Assembly: GCA_005880985.1 (NCBI GenBank) | Contig: VBIQ01000012.1 | Coordinates: 1-64,000 of the forward strand | Source of the DNA: Chloroflexota bacterium | GTDB taxonomy: Bacteria; Chloroflexota; Dormibacteria; Aeolococcales; Aeolococcaceae | Length of the DNA stretch: 64,000 bases | Direction: 5' to 3' | Shown: one piece after another, positions 6,276-63,600 of the stretch | How positions within the stretch are numbered: the stretch's first letter is position 1 | How the letters are laid out: the number at the start of each line of letters is the position of its first letter | Made by a program: the position numbers and the translations under genes | Notes under the pieces: generated by a model | What the model was told of the DNA's origin: nothing | Seen by the model: the letters and a program-made list of their open reading frames with translations, nothing else | The model's database searches: none

Positions 6276-6644
6276 GGGGGCGTATGGCTTCGACGGGGTC
6301 GTGGGTCGTGGGATGGCGAGCCGAGCCCCGGGCTCGTAAAACCGGGAAAAACATAAGTGCGAACAGCACTCAGCCCGTCGCGCTAGCCGCGTAACCAAGG
6401 GCACACACCTCAGGCTTCGGCCTGACGTCGACCGGTCCCTCGGCCGTGGGGGCCGGAGCCGACGTTAATACCAGTGGCCTCGCCGCCCGGTGGCGCCACG
6501 GCGCCGGGCGGGACGAACACCGTGGCTGGTCGGGGCGGAGCCTGGTCCCAGGGCGCCGCTCCGGTGAGAACAAAACCGGGACTACGCTCGTAGAGGTCTC
6601 ACGGGACGCGGCTTCGGACCCGGGTTCGAGCCCCGGCGCCTCCA
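6276..6644 (+). ncRNA. ssrA: Transfer-messenger RNA (tmRNA)
   Basis: The RNA of trans-translation. The 5' end GGGGGCG pairs with CGCCTCC at 6637-6643 (one G-U pair) as the acceptor stem, followed by discriminator A6644; CCA is not encoded. The 5' end contains the GGCTTCGACGGG consensus. The T arm CCGGG/TTCGAGC/CCCGG is canonical. The tag reading frame starts at GCG 6359 and reads ANSTQPVALAA, ending in TAA 6392-6394; the ALAA end is the usual protease-recognised tail. TACCAT at 6221-6226 may be the -10 box, implying a leader removed by RNase P. The partner gene smpB is 2 kb upstream. Confidence 0.95.
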
Positions 6645-19222: not shown

Positions 19223-19332
19223 GCACGTGGCCCGGGCAGGGGAGCAACACCGAACCCGCTCCTGGATGATCCGCGGAGGCGGCGGATACGTAACCATGAG
19301 GTTGTGGACGGTGGCCGCGGCACGACGGATCG

Positions 19333-19896
19333 ATGATGTCGTCCGACGAGCGCATCCTGGAGCTCCTGGGCCAGGCGTCGCCCGAGGGGATCGAGTTGCT
19401 CTACGATCGGTACGGCGCCCTTGCCTTCACGCTCGCCCGCCGGGTCCTCGACGACGAGGCGGCCGCCGAGGACGTCGTCCAGGAGTCGTTCCTCTCGATC
19501 TGGCGTCGATCCGCGACCTTTGACCCGCGCCGGGGAAGCCTTCGCACCTGGGTGTGCTCCATCGTCCGCCACCGCGCTCTCGACCGGCTCCGAGGGCGCA
19601 GCGGGCGGGCGCGCCACGACCTGCCGCTGGAGCTTGCCGTCGAGCACACCTCCATCTCCGACACCTGGGACCAGGTGTCGGAGCAGTTGGAGCGTGACGC
19701 CGTCCGCCGCGCCCTCGGCGAGCTCTCCCCCGAGCAGCGGCAGACCCTCGAGCTCGCCTACTACGGGGGTTACTCGCAATCCGATATCAGCTCACTGATG
19801 GCCGTACCTCTGGGCACGGTCAAGGGACGCACCCGGCTGGCGCTGCGCAGGCTGCGACAGGTGCTCGAGGGCCGGGTCGCGTGGGAGCCGACATGA
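19333..19896 (+). CDS. ECF-type RNA polymerase sigma factor
   Basis: A 187-residue group IV sigma factor. Region 2 spans about residues 20-85: LYDRYGALAFTLARRVLDDE, AEDVVQESFLSIWRRS and the -10-reading WVCSIVRHRALDRLR. Region 4 begins at ALGELSPEQRQTLELAYYGG and carries the helix-turn-helix YSQSDISSLMAVPLGTVKGR. It is of the SigK/RpoE-like type with a co-transcribed anti-sigma factor. Two ATGs (19333, 19336) are in tandem. The stop overlaps the anti-sigma start in ATGA. Confidence 0.93.
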   Translation: MMSSDERILELLGQASPEGIELLYDRYGALAFTLARRVLDDEAAAEDVVQESFLSIWRRSATFDPRRGSLRTWVCSIVRHRALDRLRGRSGRARHDLPLELAVEHTSISDTWDQVSEQLERDAVRRALGELSPEQRQTLELAYYGGYSQSDISSLMAVPLGTVKGRTRLALRRLRQVLEGRVAWEPT

Positions 19897-20660
19897 CCTG
19901 CCAGGACGCTGAACTGCTGCTCGCGGCTCGCGCGGTGGGCTCGCTCGATCCGGCCGAGGTCGATCCCCTGGAGGAGCACCTGCGCCGGTGCGAACGCTGC
20001 CAGGCAGCGGTCACCGAGTACGTGGCGGCCGCCGACGTGCTGCCGCTGGCACTCGACCCCGTCCCACCGCCACCGTCGCTGCGGACGCGCCTTCTCACCC
20101 AGGTCTATGCCGAGGCGGCTGCAGCCGGTCCCCAGGCTCGCGACCGGCGGCTGTCACTCCGGGATGGCTTGCAGCGACTCTGGCGCGGCATCCCCGCGTC
20201 GCGAGGGCTCACCGTGGCCGGGGCTGCGGGGGCGGTCGCAGCGGTCGCCATCAGCTGGGCCGTCGCCTCGCACTCGGCCTCGTCGAGGCCACAACCGGTC
20301 GCCCTGCAGCTCCGAGGGACGACCGCGGTGCCTGGTGCCACCGGCTCCTTGACCTACGATCCCGGAGCGCACTCCACGGTGGTGAGGGCGCAGGGGCTCC
20401 CACCCCTGACTCCGCAGCTCGTCCAGGGTGGGGTGTCGAGTCCTTCCTACGAGCTCTGGCTCATCCCGCCGGACAACCACCCGGTTCCCGTCGCCTTTCT
20501 CAGCGAGGCGCCGGACGGGGTCACGTGGACCGCCGCCATCACCGGCCGCGACCTGTCCGGCTTTACCACGCTGGCCGCCACCGAGGAGCCGTCGCGACTG
20601 AACAGCACGCCGCAGGGGCCCGAGGTGCTGAGCGCCGCGCTGCAGGGAGTGGTGCGCTGA
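19893..20660 (+). CDS. Membrane-anchored zinc anti-sigma factor (RskA-like)
   Basis: A 255-residue anti-sigma factor. The N-terminal ZAS motif HLRRCERC (HxxxCxxC) should bind the ECF factor in the cytoplasm. One membrane helix follows (GLTVAGAAGAVAAVAISWAV), then an extracytoplasmic domain with the RskA-type YELWLIP and LAATEEPS segments. Proteolysis or ligand sensing outside would release the sigma factor. ATG 19893 overlaps the sigma stop; a GTG four codons upstream is possible. It is convergent with the transporter gene, with one base between stops. Confidence 0.9.
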   Translation: MTCQDAELLLAARAVGSLDPAEVDPLEEHLRRCERCQAAVTEYVAAADVLPLALDPVPPPPSLRTRLLTQVYAEAAAAGPQARDRRLSLRDGLQRLWRGIPASRGLTVAGAAGAVAAVAISWAVASHSASSRPQPVALQLRGTTAVPGATGSLTYDPGAHSTVVRAQGLPPLTPQLVQGGVSSPSYELWLIPPDNHPVPVAFLSEAPDGVTWTAAITGRDLSGFTTLAATEEPSRLNSTPQGPEVLSAALQGVVR

Positions 20661-20661
20661 C

Positions 20662-22074
20662 TCAGCGGACGCTGGGGAGCGCCTGAGTGAAGAGGCCGAG
20701 ACCGGCGACGCAGACGATCACCGCGCTTCCCACCGACAGCAGGCGGGCTGCCCGGGTCGCGCTGAGCACCCGCTGGCGAGGCAGGCGTTGCAGTAGCGAG
20801 GGACCGTGAGCCAGGGCGACGCCGATCCCCACCAGCACCAGCGCGAGGCCGCTGCTGAAGGCGACGATGAGCAGCAGGCCGAACGCCACCCGGTGCAGGG
20901 AGATGGCGGCGAGCAGGACGATCAGCGCCGACGGGCAGGGGAGCAGGCCGCCTGACACTCCGAGCAGCACGACCCCACGCCGCCCGGTCCGCGCCTCAGG
21001 CTCGTGGTGGTGGTGATGCTCTGATTCGTGCCGGTGGTGGTGTGCGTGGCCGTGGTCGTGGAGTCGTGCCACCGATCGCCAGCGGGCCACCACTAGCCAG
21101 CAGCCCATCGCCACCACCAGCAGGCCGCTGATGAGCGTCAACCAGGGATAGAGACGCTCGGGAGTGATCAGGGACGACGCGTACAGGGTGACCAGCCCGA
21201 GCGCGAAGACGCCGGCGGTGTGGGTCGCGGTGAGCGTCGCGCCGAGCAGCAGCGCGTGGCGCCAGCTGCGACGGGAACCGACCATGTAGCCCGCGATCAC
21301 CGCCTTGCCGTGGCCGGGCGACAGGGCGTGAGCCGCCCCGAGGGCCACCGCCGCCACCACGGCGAAGGCGGCGAACGACCACGAGACATGCTCGGGCGCG
21401 ATGAGCGCTGCAAAACGGTCCTGCGTGGCGCCGAAGCCGGCTCCCAGGGGAGCGAGAGCGGCCGGTCGGGTGAGCAGAAGACCGGGAGCGTACGAGAGGC
21501 TCGCCTGCCGGACGTCGAGCGGACTGCTGAGCAGATCCTGCGGGTAGGCGCGCAGCTCGTTGGTCACCGAGGTCGACGGGGCACTGGCCTGGACAACTCT
21601 CGCCCCGCCGGTGGCGCGGACGGTGATCTCATGCCAGCCGAGGCGTCCGGGGTCGTTGGCATCGCGGTACACGGCCCGGTGCTCGCCGTCGCCAGGGCCG
21701 TCGGCGGCGAAGAGGGCCTCGATCCGCAGCGTCTGCAGTCCGCCCTGGCCGGGGAGAAACCGCATCCTGCGATCCACGGCTCGGATGTGCCGGCCGGCGC
21801 CGTCAACGGTCAGGGAAAGGTTGTGAGCGATGACGGCCACCTTGGCATCGAGGTAGGTACGGCTGTCCTGCATTTGCTGCCGTTCCTGAAACGCCGGGAT
21901 CTCGGCGAGGTCGAGGACGTAGTGGATCCGCACCTCGCGTCCGGCCACCTCGATGCCGCTGTAGTGGTTGACGGTGAAATTGCCGAGCGGGTGCGCGAGA
22001 ACGGCGAGGGGCAGGATCAGCGTCGCCGCCATCGCGGCGATCGCCGCGGCGAGCAGGCGGGTCCCGCGGCTCAT
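20662..22074 (-). CDS. NicO/RcnA-type nickel-cobalt transporter with N-terminal exported domain
   Basis: A 470-residue membrane protein. A signal sequence precedes an extracytoplasmic domain of about 200 residues (HPLGNFTVNHYSGIEV at its start), then six or so membrane helices. The helix motif HALSPGHGKA is the NicO/RcnA counterpart of HX4D metal motifs, and a loop with HDHGHAHHHRHESEHHHHH is clearly a metal-binding histidine tract. It probably exports or imports Ni, Co or a related ion. The start overlaps the stop of the TPR gene (ATGA), so it closes the DUF4331 operon. Confidence 0.85.
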   Translation of the reverse strand: MSRGTRLLAAAIAAMAATLILPLAVLAHPLGNFTVNHYSGIEVAGREVRIHYVLDLAEIPAFQERQQMQDSRTYLDAKVAVIAHNLSLTVDGAGRHIRAVDRRMRFLPGQGGLQTLRIEALFAADGPGDGEHRAVYRDANDPGRLGWHEITVRATGGARVVQASAPSTSVTNELRAYPQDLLSSPLDVRQASLSYAPGLLLTRPAALAPLGAGFGATQDRFAALIAPEHVSWSFAAFAVVAAVALGAAHALSPGHGKAVIAGYMVGSRRSWRHALLLGATLTATHTAGVFALGLVTLYASSLITPERLYPWLTLISGLLVVAMGCWLVVARWRSVARLHDHGHAHHHRHESEHHHHHEPEARTGRRGVVLLGVSGGLLPCPSALIVLLAAISLHRVAFGLLLIVAFSSGLALVLVGIGVALAHGPSLLQRLPRQRVLSATRAARLLSVGSAVIVCVAGLGLFTQALPSVR

Positions 22075-23381
22075 GCGCGACTCTCGAGCGCCGCGAGCTC
22101 GTGCCTGGCCTCGTCGGAGTGGATGATCGAGAACGCGGGATTGAGCGTCAGCGTGTGGGCAAGGTCGTTCCGTGCCTGGGCTGTCATTCCCAGAGCGGCC
22201 TCGATCATGCCGGAGTGGAAGAAGAAGAGAGGATCCTCGGTGCCGAGCCTGTGCGCCTGGAGTGATGCCTGCAGCGCGCCGCCCAGTTCGCCGTTGACGT
22301 AGAGGGTCCAGGCGAGCGCATCGGCTGACTGGACGCTGGGACGGTCGCGCGCCGCGCGACGGGCAGCGGCGATGGCGTCGGGACCGGTCTGTCCGCGATC
22401 GGCGTCGAAGAGCGCCAGCTCCTGGTCGAGGTCGACGCCGTTGGCCTGGTAGAGCTGCTGTTCAGCGGCCGCGAGGTCGTAGCTGCGGCGGGCGTCGCCG
22501 CTGCGTCCCATCGCGGCCTGTACGTCGCCAAGGGTGATGACGTACTGCGGCAGCGGATAGATGTCGATGGCCTGCTGCAGCAGGGTGACGGCCTCGTCGA
22601 AGCGCGACTGAGCGGCGCGGACCCGTCCCAGCGCGGCGAGGGCGTGGACGTAGTTCGGGTCGGCGAAGAGCGCCCGGCGGTACTCGTGCTCGGCGGCGTC
22701 GAGCTCGCCGTGGTTGAGGTGGAGATTGCCGAGGAGAACCTCGATGTAGGCGACGTTCTCGGGGGTTCCGCCGCCCGCGTCGGCGGCCATGCGCATGGCC
22801 GCTATGGCCCCGGGGACATCGCCGTGCAGCTCACGGACGTACGAGACACGGCTGTACGAGGTGAGGTCGGGGCGGCGATCGACCATCGACTGCACGGTGG
22901 CAAGGGCCTCGTCGTAGCGCCCCAGCTCGACCTGGGCGTCGGCGATGACCCCGAGCGGAGCGGCGGCATGAGGCGCCGCCGCCTGTGCCCGCTGACCCCA
23001 TTCGAACGCTGCGGTGAACTGGTGCCGCGCCAGGCAGAGCACCCCGCTCAGCAGCAGGGCCTGCGAGTCGCCCGGCGCCGCGGCGCGGGCGGTGCGGAGA
23101 AGGCCGTCGACCTTGGCGTAGTAGGAGGGATCTCCGACCTCACGGACCTTTTGGAGATAGGCGGCGGAGAGTTGATCGATGGCCGCGACGTCGCCAGGAG
23201 TGGCGCGAACGCGCGACTGATCGCGAGCGATGAGCTGGTCGGTCGTCAGGGTCACACCGGTGCGGTTCGGACGAGGCGCCGAAACCGCCGGCGCTGTCGA
23301 CAGAAGTGACACCCCGGAGCCGCAGCCGGTCATCACCGCGCCGCAGAGGACGAGCAGCCAGGTCCACGATCGGAGTCGCAT
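22071..23381 (-). CDS. TPR-repeat lipoprotein
   Basis: A 436-residue exported protein. The signal peptide LLVLCGAVMTGCGSG ends in a lipobox with Cys at about residue 20, so it is lipid-anchored outside the membrane. Most of the rest is tandem tetratricopeptide repeats, for example GELDAAEHEYRRALFADPNY, RFDEAVTLLQQAIDIYPLPQ and MTAQARNDLAHTLTLNPAFS. It is presumably a scaffold for the products of its operon. ATG 23381 is chosen because the lipoprotein signal begins there. It lies between the DUF4331 and NicO genes. Confidence 0.88.
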   Translation of the reverse strand: MRLRSWTWLLVLCGAVMTGCGSGVSLLSTAPAVSAPRPNRTGVTLTTDQLIARDQSRVRATPGDVAAIDQLSAAYLQKVREVGDPSYYAKVDGLLRTARAAAPGDSQALLLSGVLCLARHQFTAAFEWGQRAQAAAPHAAAPLGVIADAQVELGRYDEALATVQSMVDRRPDLTSYSRVSYVRELHGDVPGAIAAMRMAADAGGGTPENVAYIEVLLGNLHLNHGELDAAEHEYRRALFADPNYVHALAALGRVRAAQSRFDEAVTLLQQAIDIYPLPQYVITLGDVQAAMGRSGDARRSYDLAAAEQQLYQANGVDLDQELALFDADRGQTGPDAIAAARRAARDRPSVQSADALAWTLYVNGELGGALQASLQAHRLGTEDPLFFFHSGMIEAALGMTAQARNDLAHTLTLNPAFSIIHSDEARHELAALESRA

Positions 23382-23408
23382 TGCGTTTCTCGGTGGCTGA
23401 GCCGGTGA

Positions 23409-23441
23409 TCCCCGCCGGCGGGCCGAGCCCACCGGCGGGGA
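23409..23441 (-). terminator. Strong hairpin between the DUF4331 and TPR genes
   Basis: Arms TCCCCGCCGG (23409-23418) and CCGGCGGGGA (23432-23441) are perfectly complementary around a 13-base loop. No T-run follows. It lies in the 84-base gap inside the operon, so it may reduce read-through or protect the upstream DUF4331 message. Confidence 0.5.
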
Positions 23442-23465
23442 ACGATCATCCGAAGACGGTCTGTG

Positions 23466-25022
23466 TCAGGCGGTTCGGCGGCGGGTGGCCGCGAAGACCA
23501 GCAGACCAGCAAGCAGGGCGCCGCCGACTCCGGCAACCGCGACCCAGCCGCCGTTGACGCCGCCGCCCGAGCCGGAGGTCTTTGCCGGCAACGCGGCAGG
23601 GCTGGCCGCCGGCTGTGAGGCCTTCTGTGCGGGAAGCGAGGCGTTGGGAAGCGCCAGGTACGGGAAGCTCGTCTCGAAGGCCTGCTCGTCGGCGTTCACG
23701 CCATCACCGAGGGTGGTCACCGCGGCAGGGTGGGTCGGAAGCAGGATCCCCTCCAGCGCCTGCAGTTCGATATCGACCACGTCGTCGGTCAGCCGCCGGC
23801 CGTTGGGAAATCCGGCGTTGTCCTTGGCGAGCACCCCGAGGCGATTCGGCGATGCCGCGGGCGCGATCGCCATGTTGAGGCGCAGCTCCTCCGCCGGTGC
23901 GGCGTGCGCGCCCTTGTCGGCGTTGAGCTTCGGAGAGGTGAGACCGTCGACGCCGGTGAGAAAGACCGAGACGAGGTCGTTTCGCGGCGTCGTCGGGGCG
24001 GGGATGTTGTAGATCTTCTGGATCAGCTTGGGAACCTCGGGATCGGTGACACCGGCGAGGAACTGCCCGTCGTTGGCAGGCTGCGAGGCGTTGTAGAGAT
24101 CCTTCGCCCCGACCGGGACGACGACCTCGTTGACCAGCGGACTGCCGAGCCGCGACACCTGGACATACGCTCCGCTCTCGGTGCGGTTGCCCTTGGCGTC
24201 TAGCACGGCCGTGCTGGGACGCTCGGTGGTGCTCCAGATGCCGATCACCGGGTTGGCGTTGGCGTCGCCGCCGGTGGCGAGCGCCGACTTGGGCACCTGA
24301 AGGGCGATGGTGTTGACGTTGTAGCCGGCCAGGGTGTCGGTGCCCACCTCCTTCAGGTTGGTGCCGAAGAGCAGGTCGAAAACGCGCAGATCGACGAAGA
24401 AGGGGTCGTCGGCCTGCCCGGCATACGTGCTGCCACCGCCAGGCAGTGGGGTGATCGCCTGGTCGCGGAGCGCCCGGTAGTTGGGCATCGATGCCACGCC
24501 GGTGAACGACGGCGCGGCCTTGCCGTTGCTGATGAGCGTGGTCGACTTCCCGGAGCTGTCGATCAGCTCCAGGGTGTAGGTCTGGGTGAAGTTGAGATTG
24601 GGGCTGTCGAGCGAGTCGACGGGTCCCGTGTCATACAGAAAGGTGTTCGGCGACTTGTAGTGGCTGGCGAACGTCCAGCGGTAGGTGAGGTGGGCGTGCG
24701 CGTCGCCGACATTGTCGATGTTGATGTCGTAGTGCGCCCCCGGACCCCACGGGTAGAAGTTGGGGCCGCCATTGGGATTCTCGAACGGAAACCAGTTGGC
24801 GATGATGGTCACCGTGTCGGGCTTGTCGGGGCTGACGAAGGCATACAGGTCGGTGTTGTCGGCGGTGGGGTCGCCGGCGATCAGCGGCGCCTCGCGGTGG
24901 CTCGATGCCAGGCCGCTGAGCGGTGTGAGCGCTAGGCCGACCGCGGCGACGCCGGTGGCCAGGACAGCAGTTTTCCGGAGCACTCGGGTTGCCCTCCGTG
25001 TGGTGAGGGCACGCCGACTCAC
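23466..25022 (-). CDS. Exported DUF4331 protein with C-terminal membrane anchor
   Basis: A 518-residue member of the DUF4331 family, function unknown. It has a signal peptide (VLATGVAAVGLALTPLSGLA), the family opening SSHREAPLIAGDPTADNTDLY, and characteristic blocks such as YDINIDNVGDAHAHLTYRWT, DDPFFVDLRVFDLL and NGRRLTDDVVDIELQA. A low-complexity linker, a hydrophobic helix and a basic end (AATRRRTA) anchor it to the membrane. The His-Arg-Glu start and many Asp residues suggest metal binding. It is the first gene of the operon running to the NicO transporter. Start is GTG. Confidence 0.9.
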   Translation of the reverse strand: MSRRALTTRRATRVLRKTAVLATGVAAVGLALTPLSGLASSHREAPLIAGDPTADNTDLYAFVSPDKPDTVTIIANWFPFENPNGGPNFYPWGPGAHYDINIDNVGDAHAHLTYRWTFASHYKSPNTFLYDTGPVDSLDSPNLNFTQTYTLELIDSSGKSTTLISNGKAAPSFTGVASMPNYRALRDQAITPLPGGGSTYAGQADDPFFVDLRVFDLLFGTNLKEVGTDTLAGYNVNTIALQVPKSALATGGDANANPVIGIWSTTERPSTAVLDAKGNRTESGAYVQVSRLGSPLVNEVVVPVGAKDLYNASQPANDGQFLAGVTDPEVPKLIQKIYNIPAPTTPRNDLVSVFLTGVDGLTSPKLNADKGAHAAPAEELRLNMAIAPAASPNRLGVLAKDNAGFPNGRRLTDDVVDIELQALEGILLPTHPAAVTTLGDGVNADEQAFETSFPYLALPNASLPAQKASQPAASPAALPAKTSGSGGGVNGGWVAVAGVGGALLAGLLVFAATRRRTA

Positions 25023-25151
25023 GGTCCGCCGTGGCCCCCCGCGGCTGCGGCGCCGGCTGCGACGCCGCGGTTCGTATGCCTCTGTCTACGTGCTGCCGCC
25101 GGCAACGGATCACGCGATCCAGGGGCACGGACCCGGGATGATCGCCCGAGG

Positions 25152-25862
25152 TCAGGGTCGCCGGGCCAGCCGGATGGTGAGGATCGCCGCCGTCACCAGC
25201 ACCAGCAGGATCGCCCCGACCGCGACGGCGACGGTCGCCCCTGAACCGCCTCCGCCTCCACCTCCGCCTCCGCTCGATGGCGAGGTGATCAGGGCGACGT
25301 CACCCAGCGAGGTCACGTTGGCGGCGTAGGTGTCGGCGATGGTGCCGATTGGGGTGCTGTTCAGCGTGGTCCAGCCGGTGCCGTCGAACCGCGCCACCGT
25401 CGCCTGTCCGGCACCGCTCGGGCCGCGCAGCACGATGGTTGCGGGCGCTCCCGCCCGCAGCCCGACGGGGGTCCCGCTCGCGGTGAGCGCGAAGCGGTAG
25501 ACGTTGCCGTCGACTCGCTGGTGGGCCGGGGCGATCGGTGGGGGAGCGACCGGGGTGATGGTCACCCGGACGGTGGTGGCGCCGGGGGGCAGCGGCAGCG
25601 ACCCGGCGCCGACCAGGATCTGCGCCTGGGGCGGGTTCTCGTCGCTGCCGGCGATGAACGGCGGAGAGCTTGCGCCGGTGACCGGCACATCCTTGGCCGC
25701 GACCGCCGCCGGCGGGCTGGAGGTGAGGAAGCGATAGGGGTCGGCGGGCGCCGGCGCCGAGTCGTAGAGGGGGGGAGCGGTGCGCGGGAGGAGGAGCCAC
25801 ACCGCGGCGAGCAGCAGCACGCCGGCCCCGAGGAAGAGAAGGCGGCACTGGCGACCGCTCAC
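25152..25862 (-). CDS. Exported protein with two membrane anchors, function unknown
   Basis: A 236-residue protein with an N-terminal hydrophobic helix (FLGAGVLLLAAVWLLLP), an extracytoplasmic domain of about 150 residues rich in Pro, Thr and Val, a Gly-rich hinge, and a C-terminal helix (VAVGAILLVLVTAAILTIRL) with a basic end. Strand-like parts such as PPGATTVRVTITPVAPPP and RFDGTGWTTLNS suggest a beta-sandwich. No family was recognised. Its GTG start overlaps the stop of the CPBP protease gene (GTGA), so the two are translationally coupled. Confidence 0.65.
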   Translation of the reverse strand: MSGRQCRLLFLGAGVLLLAAVWLLLPRTAPPLYDSAPAPADPYRFLTSSPPAAVAAKDVPVTGASSPPFIAGSDENPPQAQILVGAGSLPLPPGATTVRVTITPVAPPPIAPAHQRVDGNVYRFALTASGTPVGLRAGAPATIVLRGPSGAGQATVARFDGTGWTTLNSTPIGTIADTYAANVTSLGDVALITSPSSGGGGGGGGGSGATVAVAVGAILLVLVTAAILTIRLARRP

Positions 25863-26482
25863 CGCAACCACCACCAGGCGAGGTCGGCGAGCGCGTGGGC
25901 GGTCGCGGGCGCGGCAACGCCTCCCGATGCGACCCGCAGCGAGCCCAGCCAGACGCCGGCGGCGAGATCCAGCGGGATCGCCCCCCAGCCGTAGAGGGGG
26001 ACGTGGAGCGCGGCGAAGGCGGCCGCGGCGACAGCGACCGCGGCGGCGTCTCCGAACATCGCGGTGACGGCGTCGAAGAGTGCGCCGCGCAGCAGGATCT
26101 CCTCGGCGGCGGCCACGACCAGGACCGTCGGCACCCATCCCAGCAGGGGAACGGCAGGTGGTGGCGCCAGCGAGTGCGCGCCCAGCAGACGCAGCAGCGC
26201 CGGCGGAGCACAGAGCACCGCGGCTCCCACGACACCCCAGCCGAGAGCGCGCCCACCCGGCCTTCCCGGGCGCCACCCGCTCGACGCGGCCAGGCCCAGC
26301 AGGATTGCCGAGAACAGCAGCGTCGCTCCCGCCGAGGACGACCAGGTGGCGCCGGTGACGGCGATGCGGATGATCACCGCGGTGGCAACGCCGATCAGCA
26401 GCAGAGTCGAGACCGCCGCACTCTGCCTCGCTCCGCGCGGGCGCGGGCGCCGCCGGATCGCGGTCGCGCCGGAGGTGCTCAC
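25859..26482 (-). CDS. CPBP-family intramembrane metalloprotease (Abi domain)
   Basis: A 207-residue membrane protein with about six helices. The CPBP motifs are visible: EEILLRGALFD (EExxxR) near residue 128, FAALHVPLYG (FxxxH) near 160, and a final His in TAHALADLAWWW. Relatives are type II CAAX-prenyl endopeptidase-like or bacteriocin-immunity proteins. No peptide substrate or bacteriocin gene is nearby. It is coupled by a 4-base overlap to the exported protein that follows; its own upstream neighbour is the MgtE_N/CBS gene 9 bases away, so three genes may share a message. Confidence 0.85.
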   Translation of the reverse strand: MSTSGATAIRRRPRPRGARQSAAVSTLLLIGVATAVIIRIAVTGATWSSSAGATLLFSAILLGLAASSGWRPGRPGGRALGWGVVGAAVLCAPPALLRLLGAHSLAPPPAVPLLGWVPTVLVVAAAEEILLRGALFDAVTAMFGDAAAVAVAAAAFAALHVPLYGWGAIPLDLAAGVWLGSLRVASGGVAAPATAHALADLAWWWLR

Positions 26483-60636: not shown

Positions 60637-63600
60637 ATGCCCGCCGTCGATCCCGCCCCGTCAGCCGAGCCGTCCACCCCCTTCGTCCACCTCCACACCC
60701 ACACCGAGTACTCGCTGCTCGACGGCGCGGCCCGGATCGGCGAGCTGGTCGAGACCGTGGCCCGCCTGGGCCAGCCGGCCCTGGCGATCACCGACCACGG
60801 AGTCCTCTATGGCGCGGTCGAGTTCTACGCCGCGGCCCACGAGGCGGGGATCAACCCGATCATCGGCTGCGAGGTCTACACCGCACCGCGCTCGCGCCAC
60901 GACCGCGAGGGCCGGGCCGACCGCGATCCCAACCATCTGGTGCTGCTCGCCCGCAACGACGCCGGTTACCGCAACCTGGTGGCGCTGGTCAGCCGGGCCC
61001 ACCTCGAGGGCTACTACTACAAGCCGAGAGTCGACCGTCAGCTGCTGGCCGAGCACGCCGAGGGATTGGTGTGCCTCTCGGCCTGCCTCGGCGGCGAGGT
61101 GCCGCAGGCGATCCTCCGCGGTGACCTCGACGCCGCCGAGCGCATCGCCCGCGAGCACGCCGAGATCTTCGGTTCCGACAGTTACTTCCTCGAGCTGCAG
61201 GACCACGGCATGGCGGAGGAGGTCGAGGTCCGCGCCGGCCTAGTCGAGATCGCCCGGCGCGCCGGCCTGCCGCTGATCTGCACCAACGACTCCCACTACA
61301 TCCGCGCCGACGACGCCGAGGCGCACGACATCCTGCTCTGCCTGCAGACGCAGTCCCGCCTCGAGGAGGAGAAGCGCTTCAAGTTCGCCGGCCCCCATTT
61401 CTACCTGGCCGGCGGCGAGGAGATGCGCTCTCGCTTCGCCGCCTACGGCGAGGCGGCGGCCAACACGGTGGCGCTGGCGGAGCGCTGTCACGTCGAGATC
61501 CCTCTGGGCAGGTCGCTGCTGCCGCACTACTCACCGATTCCCGAGGGACTCGACGCCGACACCTATCTGCGCGAGCTCTGTGAGCAGGGGCTTCGGGAGC
61601 GGTACGGCGACAGCCCCGGCCAGGAGGCCCGCGAGCGGCTGGCGATGGAGCTCGACGTCATCCGCGAGACCGGCTTTTCCGCCTACTTCCTCATCGTCTG
61701 GGACCTGGTCCGCGCTGCCCGCTGCCAGGAGGTCAAGGTCGGACCGGGGCGGGGCAGCGCCGCCGGGTCGCTGGTGGCCTACGTGCTGCGGATCACCAAC
61801 CTCGACCCGCTGCGCTACGGGTTGATCTTCGAGCGCTTCCTCAACCGCGAGCGGGTGTCCATGCCGGACATCGACATCGACTTCGACGACCGCCGCCGCG
61901 ACCGCGTCCTCAACTACGTGCAGGAGAAGTACGGCCGCGACCGGGTCGCCCAGATCATCACCTTCGGGACCATGGCCGCCCGCGCCGCCATCCGCGACGT
62001 CGGCCGCGTCCTCGACGTGCCGCTGCCCGACGTCGACCGGCTCGCCAAGCTGGTGCCACCCACCGTCGGCATCACCCTCGACCGGGCCCTGGAGTCGCGA
62101 GAGCTGCGGGAGGTCTACGAGAGCGAGGAGTGGGCCCGGCGGGTCATCGACAACGCCCGCCGGCTGGAGGGCATCTGCCGCAACGCCAGCACCCATGCCG
62201 CCGGTGTCGTCATCGCCCCCGAGCCGCTGCAGAACCTGGTGCCGCTGCAGAGCTCCGCCAACGACCGGGACGCGACCGTCACCCAGTTCGACATGGACGG
62301 CGTCCAGAAGATCGGCCTGCTGAAGATGGACTTCCTGGGGCTGACCAACCTCACCATCATAGAGGAGGCGGTGGAGAACGTCGAGCAGACGACGGGAAAA
62401 CGCATCGACATCGATGCCATCCCCCTCGACGACGCCCCCACCTACGCGCTGCTGGGGCGGGCCGACACCCTCGGCGTCTTCCAGCTGGAGGGAGTCGGCG
62501 CCAAGAAGATCCTCATCGACATGCAGCCCACCTGCCTCGAGGACCTCTCGGTGGCGAACGCCCTCAACCGCCCCGGCCCCATCGAGGGCGGGGTCATCGA
62601 CCTCTACATGAAGCGCAAGCGGGGCGATGAGCCGGTCAGCTATCTGCTCCCCGAGATGGAGCTGATCCTGGCAGAAACCTACGGGGTCATCGTCTACCAG
62701 GATCAGGTGATGAAGATCGCCTCCGCCGTCGCCGGCTTCACCCTCGGCGAGGCCGACATCCTCCGCGCCGCGATGGGCAAGAAGGACAAGGCGAAGATGG
62801 CGCAGCAGCGTGAGAAGTTCGTCGCCGGGGCCACCGCCAACGGAGTCGCCGCCAGCGTCGCCGGCGAGCTCTTCGACCTCATCGCCTACTTCGCCGGCTA
62901 CGGCTTCAACGCCGCTCACGCCATCTGCTACGCGCTGATCGGCTACCAGACTGCTTACCTCAAGGCCAACCATCCGCTGGAGTACATGGCGGCCCTGCTG
63001 AACAGCAAGGCGGGCGACTTCGACCGGCTCAAGGTGGGCATCCTCGACGCCCACGCCCGCGGACTGGTGGTGCGACCTCCCGACATCAACCGCAGCCAGG
63101 GCGGCTTCGCGGTGGGAGAGGTCGCCGCCGGGGAGATCCTCTATGGGCTGCACCACATCAAGAACGTGGGCGAGAAGGTGGTGGAGGCGATCCTCGAGGG
63201 CCGTGCCACCGGCGGCCCCTACCGCAGCCTCCTCGATCTCTGCCTGCGCGTCGGCGGTCGCGACCTCAACCGGCGGGTGCTCGAGGCGCTGGTGCGCAGC
63301 GGTGCCTGCGACTGTCTCGGCGACCGCGCCGTCCTGCTGGCCCTGATCGACCGCGCCATCGACCGCGCGGCGCAGATCCGCCGCGAGCGCGAGTCGGGGC
63401 AGACCTCGCTGTTCGGCGGTCCGCCGGCGAGCGAGGTCGCGGGTGGCGAGGACAGCGCGGGATCGGTCGCTCACGGCGACGCGGCCACAGCCGCGGCGCT
63501 CGGCTACGAGGACATGGAGGCCCCCGCCGGCATCGCCCCCGCCGGCGACGACGACCGGCTCCGCTGGGAGCGCGAGCTGCTTGGCATGTACCTCAGCGAT

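Follow-up and report, generated by a model that had tools for sequence, protein, structure and literature searches.

What does a secreted protein built on a domain of unknown function do beside a metal permease, a lipoprotein and a dedicated sigma factor? This question is raised by a locus at positions 19333–25022 of a 64,000-nucleotide stretch of DNA (hereafter the window; contig VBIQ01000012.1, assembly GCA_005880985.1) from a Chloroflexota bacterium, in which a gene pair for an extracytoplasmic function (ECF) sigma factor and its anti-sigma factor (19333–20660, plus strand) faces an operon for a DUF4331 protein, a tetratricopeptide repeat (TPR) lipoprotein and a NicO-type permease (25022–20662, minus strand). 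These gene positions agree with those of an earlier note on this DNA, which had also described the two units as meeting stop to stop; a single base, 20661, indeed separates the stop codon of the anti-sigma gene (20658–20660) from that of the permease gene (20662–20664). Here we find that the locus is a conserved ECF-controlled envelope module that is undescribed as a system in the literature searched, where DUF4331 itself went unmentioned. Its parts are of known kinds or, for DUF4331, a domain of unknown function; what is new is their combination, the predicted X-X-His N-terminus of the DUF4331 protein and a domain with an N-terminal histidine (His1) carried by a NicO permease.

The association of these genes extends far beyond the window. 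We surveyed PF14224, the family of the DUF4331 domain, in 301 genomes of the phylum and found it in 58; the neighbourhoods of 40 loci were inspected, together with 80 actinomycete loci and, for wider phyla, plasmid records, and a partner was counted when its gene lay within 6 kb of the DUF4331 open reading frame (ORF). Beside the signal-bearing DUF4331 genes of the phylum we found a TPR gene in 16 of 18 cases, NicO in 15/18 and an ECF sigma gene in 6/18. The corresponding counts for actinomycetes were 77/82, 69/82 and 43/82, although these loci were the closest matches to the query, so that the percentages should not be read as unbiased. The domain is present in at least five phyla. On plasmids of alpha-, beta- and gammaproteobacteria the third gene encodes a HupE/UreJ-2 permease (PF13795) with an exported domain of its own, a plasmid of the cyanobacterium Nostoc carries DUF4331, TPR and NicO, and one of Adhaeribacter (Bacteroidota) carries DUF4331 and TPR. 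A Pseudoalteromonas plasmid (L154:6538–9521) has genes for an ECF sigma factor and an RskA_C anti-sigma factor directly upstream of DUF4331 in the same orientation, followed after DUF4331 by an Ig-like and a TPR-like protein. The co-occurrence that the earlier note had made its test was thus found in both the phylum and the actinomycetes, and the association of DUF4331, TPR and permease genes is real, lies beyond chance and is conserved in distant bacteria.

Other company was also seen on plasmids. In three Rhodobacterales records (L155, L180 and L181) DUF4331 has type II secretion genes and an A24 prepilin peptidase as neighbours in place of the permease; a Variovorax plasmid (L179:4897–5727) has an ORF that by eye looks like UreD just upstream of DUF4331, TPR and HupE; and a Streptomyces anulatus plasmid (L158:13237–16818) carries a second DUF4331 gene, behind which a sortase and a fasciclin-domain protein are encoded.

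The DUF4331 gene of the window (23466–25022, minus strand) matches PF14224 above its cut-off and over the full length of the profile (545 bits, positions 1–421), and encodes a signal peptide and a C-terminal transmembrane anchor with an RRR tail (23469–23552, minus strand). Predicted processing leaves the mature N-terminal tripeptide Ser-Ser-His (24897–24905, minus strand), which is of the amino-terminal Cu(II)- and Ni(II)-binding (ATCUN) type, a motif that consists of a free N-terminus with histidine as the third residue. Of 131 distinct copies, 128 have SSH as the predicted tripeptide and 3 have ASH, with proline never at residues 1 or 2. In signal-bearing proteins the signal ends in Ala and S-S-H-R-E-A-P follows directly (A/SSH); Ala occupies position −1 of (S/A)-S-H in 109 of 110 such copies, 74 of them with a canonical AxA. 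In signal-less proteins the start codon directly abuts the identical S-S-H (M/SSH), as it does in all 21 copies, most of which have a Shine–Dalgarno-like GAG or GGAG upstream. Start methionines are removed before Ser or Ala. A divergent clade has a different block here (ADHLDAP and similar) that reads X-D-H or S-H-H, and its histidine is still third, both behind a start codon and behind a signal peptide (ALA/SDH in the Nostoc copy). His3 of the predicted processed protein therefore holds its position even where the export route or the sequence around it changes, a constancy that fits the definition of ATCUN, and we infer that the N-terminus binds Cu(II) or Ni(II) in this fashion.

On a tree, the window protein groups with actinomycete copies (17 rows, support 100) and not with most of its own phylum, which suggests that the gene was gained by horizontal transfer. 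A second DUF4331 gene on contig 11 of the same genome (L063:9028–10659) is very divergent, begins M/ADHNDPN and has no TPR, NicO or ECF partners nearby.

The earlier note had suggested that the operon might be under the ECF factor. The sigma gene (19333–19896, plus strand) encodes a SigK-like protein of regions 2 and 4 only (Sigma70_r2, 1e-19; r4_2, 8e-13; Pfam/NCBIfam), with SigK as the second-best NCBIfam model (149 bits). An ATGA overlap couples it to the gene for a membrane anti-sigma factor of the RskA type (19893–20660, plus strand), composed of a zinc finger (zf-HC2, 4e-5) and RskA_C (3.5e-10). A blind comparison of the regions upstream of the sigma and DUF4331 genes found TGATCC-N15-ACGTA in both; shared dyads in the window (6, against a shuffle mean of 7.2) were not above shuffles, so the motif needed separate testing. 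The count expected for TGATCC-N16-CGTA in the 64-kb window is 0.05. The whole 3.3-Mb genome holds three exact copies: one 66 nt upstream of the sigma gene (19267–19292, plus strand), one 90 nt upstream of the DUF4331 start (25087–25112, minus strand) and one well within a long open frame (62680–62705). The same motif lies upstream of 22 of 62 DUF4331 genes of the phylum at exactly N16, with 0–1 at the other spacings tried, and at one locus (L045) it precedes the sigma gene and the DUF4331 gene alike. Its actinomycete equivalent, AATCC-N16-CGAAT, precedes 28 of 84 genes, again at N16 only (other spacings, 0–1); this promoter, as seen in Streptomyces, resembles the SigK consensus. The Streptomyces motif CCAATC-N15–17-CGAAT is absent from the window, where this lineage has TGATCC-N16-CGTA instead, and a fixed-hexamer scan upstream of the window genes (CAATCC, CCATCC or GGAACC with CGAA, CGTA or CGTC) found nothing. 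Most genomes of the phylum, including those without DUF4331, hold a few copies of TGATCC-N16-CGTA, and CTAG, a tetranucleotide rare in bacteria, occurs in the reversed control pattern; the count is therefore not diagnostic, and the evidence is the placement of the promoter. Judged from this placement, the sigma factor very probably activates its own gene as well as the DUF4331 operon. Because the same rare promoter stands at both, a sigma factor set free by its membrane anti-sigma factor should induce the sigma gene and the DUF4331–TPR–NicO operon together.

The TPR lipoprotein gene (22071–23381, minus strand; TPR families, lipobox MTGC) has its likely start at ATG 23381, with the longest ORF reaching 23432, and overlaps the start of the permease gene by 4 bases. 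The permease (20662–22074, minus strand) is of the NicO/RcnA type by PF03824 (1.4e-13, 51.3 bits against a cut-off of 27.7), by NCBIfam PRK10019 and by the HxxxPGHxK signature, present as HALSPGHGK. Its signal peptide is followed by an exported domain of about 170 residues, and in its His-rich loop (20989–21069, minus strand) two histidines vary little or not at all across alignments A2 and A5. The exported domain (21484–21993, minus strand) is predicted to begin, once mature, with HPLGNF: His1 is preceded by AxA (AxA/HPLGN) in 54 of 59 relatives, and the window protein reads VLA/HPLGNF. AlphaFold2 (AF2) models the domain as a beta-sandwich block with a predicted local distance difference test (pLDDT) score mostly above 90, and the top Foldseek match of the model in the PDB is 9GCE (probability 1.00, E 1.2e-4, TM 0.51 on the target), which is the Ang-1 domain, with Cu bound, of a HupE/UreJ-2 protein (PMC12537917). 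In that paper, such anglerase domains bind Cu (Kd ~74 nM) and Ni (~220 nM) through His1 and are proposed to capture metal and feed it to the fused HupE/UreJ-2 permease; a term search of the same text found neither NicO nor TPR. The modelled NicO exported domain appears to work like an anglerase, but its permease belongs to another family, and we therefore assign it to neither Ang-1 nor Ang-2. PDB sequence searches with DUF4331, NicO and HupE found no relevant relative, and one with alignment A6 gave mainly EF-hand-like loop matches.

The permeases beside DUF4331 (NicO, HupE/UreJ-2 or, once, NiCoT) suggest nickel, and the structural match and ATCUN chemistry suggest copper, so that the metal is left as Cu and/or Ni. 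The envelope metal handling proposed in the earlier note gains support from these neighbours, from the match to a Cu-bound anglerase and from the X-X-His terminus. Its equation of NicO with Ni/Co transport is too narrow, given that the best structural match is a Cu-binding domain, with nickel as its second ligand, and that the genome encodes a separate canonical NiCoT. With this NiCoT, a nickel superoxide dismutase (Ni-SOD) elsewhere and no hydrogenase in the genome, plain nickel uptake is probably served by other genes. Urease, hydrogenase and Ni-SOD are not favoured as clients: urease-alpha has a weak partial match only, and none of the three is adjacent.

A second type of locus bears on what the module might do. 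In the phylum, signal-less SSH copies of DUF4331 have no TPR (0/15) or NicO (0/15) neighbour; all 15 adjoin, on the same strand, a gene for a small protein with a twin-arginine translocation (Tat) signal, which accompanies none of the 18 signal-bearing copies, and 14 of 15 have a small 'DIG' protein nearby. The operon order is Tat-signal protein, DUF4331 and small conserved protein (DIGxxxGALIIYT...RTHT) (L034, L037, L040, L044, L046, L048, L049, L050, L054, L055 and L062); neither of the small proteins tested matched a Pfam family. L054 (7612–9183), alone among the members of this cluster, carries a NiCoT nickel/cobalt permease; it lies directly downstream of DUF4331 and has the DIG protein as a C-terminal extension. 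The divergent clade is similarly divided, with TPR beside 4 of 4 signal-bearing copies (long flanks; 5 of 5 with short flanks) and a different Tat-signal protein just downstream of several signal-less ones. Export of signal-less proteins as Tat hitchhikers is known for other enzymes (PMC4273604). Judging from gene neighbours, the simplest account would be that DUF4331 acquires its metal where it folds, outside the cell if exported by Sec, in which case it would depend on a permease and a partner, and inside if it hitchhikes through Tat. The partner split by export type favours metallation over pure capture, and the metal-dependent assembly that the earlier note had offered as an alternative suits the signal-less, Tat-linked variants better than simple capture does.

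Tentatively, we prefer to read the locus as an ECF-controlled extracytoplasmic Cu and/or Ni module in which the permease and the TPR protein metallate the secreted DUF4331 protein. By its sequence, DUF4331 is exported by Sec and held by its C-terminal transmembrane segment. Its processed X-X-His N-terminus would take Cu(II) or Ni(II) in ATCUN fashion; the permease would move the metal, its His1 domain would hand it to DUF4331, and the TPR lipoprotein would act as docking partner. The signal-less relatives would receive their metal in the cytosol and leave it in folded form as hitchhikers.

Several observations weigh against this proposal. A Bacteroidota DUF4331 (L156) lacks the usual Ala register. 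The AF2 model of DUF4331 (predicted template modelling score, pTM, 0.85; mean pLDDT 75) is weak at residues 1–10 (pLDDT 55) and its fold search against the PDB gave no credible match, so it offers no metal-site geometry. HupE is usually regarded as an importer. Profile comparison detected no relationship between the exported domains of NicO and HupE (hhalign probability 3.3%, from shallow alignments), and their kinship is thus structural only. The partner split amounts to about four export-type switches on the tree, yielding three independent pairs that usually agree in direction for TPR and lie below the reach of significance. Metal binding and transport by the module are predictions from sequences and models, and the hitchhiking of signal-less DUF4331 is read from gene neighbours only.

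The main rival is capture for uptake, in which DUF4331 and the His1 domain would fish Cu or Ni from outside and feed the permease for import. It draws on the capture and feeding proposed for HupE/UreJ-2 fusions in PMC12537917, on the same His1 arrangement in the NicO permease and on the anchoring of DUF4331 at the outer side of the membrane. We consider it unlikely: the signal-less proteins, with Tat partners and no permease, would make no sense for capture outside, the permease resembles RcnA efflux proteins in its signature and its PRK10019 match, and the genome already has a canonical NiCoT.

Less likely still, the fixed DUF4331 N-terminus might hold no metal and serve folding, assembly or N-terminal catalysis, with a different cargo for the NicO-like protein. 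SHREAP and the D-rich stretch that follows are invariant as a block, which could be structural, and the permease also matches DsbD_2, weakly. However, the divergent clade changes the block around His3 and leaves His3 in place, the three copies with Ala for Ser1 argue against Ser1 nucleophile chemistry, and permeases of nickel-transport families recur in DUF4331 neighbourhoods. Efflux or tolerance, with the RcnA-like permease expelling excess Ni, Co or Cu and DUF4331 and TPR buffering outside, would suit the kinship of the permease, nearest to RcnA-type Ni/Co efflux transporters, and an ECF control typical of envelope stress, but is improbable given that HupE/UreJ-2 fills the permease slot in Pseudomonadota, that signal-less variants lack a permease and that the annotated neighbours of DUF4331 loci on plasmid records included no metal-resistance operon.

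Carried further, metallation of DUF4331 would make the family a large, unrecognized class of exported metalloproteins that hold their metal at the processed N-terminal X-X-His, with two maturation routes: Sec export and metallation outside by the His1 permease and TPR protein under ECF control, or cytosolic metallation and Tat hitchhiking. This generalization is possible, if rather doubtful. With the N-terminal X-X-His, the His1 permease and the dedicated promoter, an uncharacterised domain becomes a system for Cu/Ni metallation or capture that can be put to the test, and the anglerase idea of 2025 reaches a second permease family whose partners and regulation can be named.

Several known systems come close. 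Like Ang-1 and Ang-2 (PMC12537917; PDB 9GCE), the NicO protein would have an exported beta-sandwich that starts, once mature, with His and is fused to a multi-pass metal permease; unlike them, that permease is of the NicO/RcnA type, the mature start is HPLGNF, profile similarity to the HupE-linked domains compared is not detectable, and DUF4331, TPR and an ECF promoter accompany it, of which the text consulted makes no mention. RcnA/NicO transporters (PF03824, PRK10019) share the HxxxPGHxK signature, the second half and the His-rich loop, whereas here a large exported domain with His1 is added, in an operon with DUF4331 and TPR. The sigma and anti-sigma factors have the domain make-up of SigK/RskA, but the predicted target is the DUF4331–TPR–permease operon and the promoter is TGATCC-N16-CGTA. 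ATCUN proteins share the predicted free, proline-less X-X-His N-terminus, which in DUF4331 appears fixed throughout a large-domain family in Sec and signal-less forms alike. The pairing of signal-less DUF4331 with a small Tat-signal protein resembles Tat hitchhiker pairs, but it occurs in relatives, not in the window, and is known from genes alone.

Beyond the DUF4331 promoter, on its upstream side, the window encodes a CAAX-type (Rce1-like) protease and a secreted Pro-rich protein of 236 residues that matches no Pfam family (25152–26482). A transfer-messenger RNA (tmRNA) gene lies at 6276–6644 of the window, with the tag ANSTQPVALAA.

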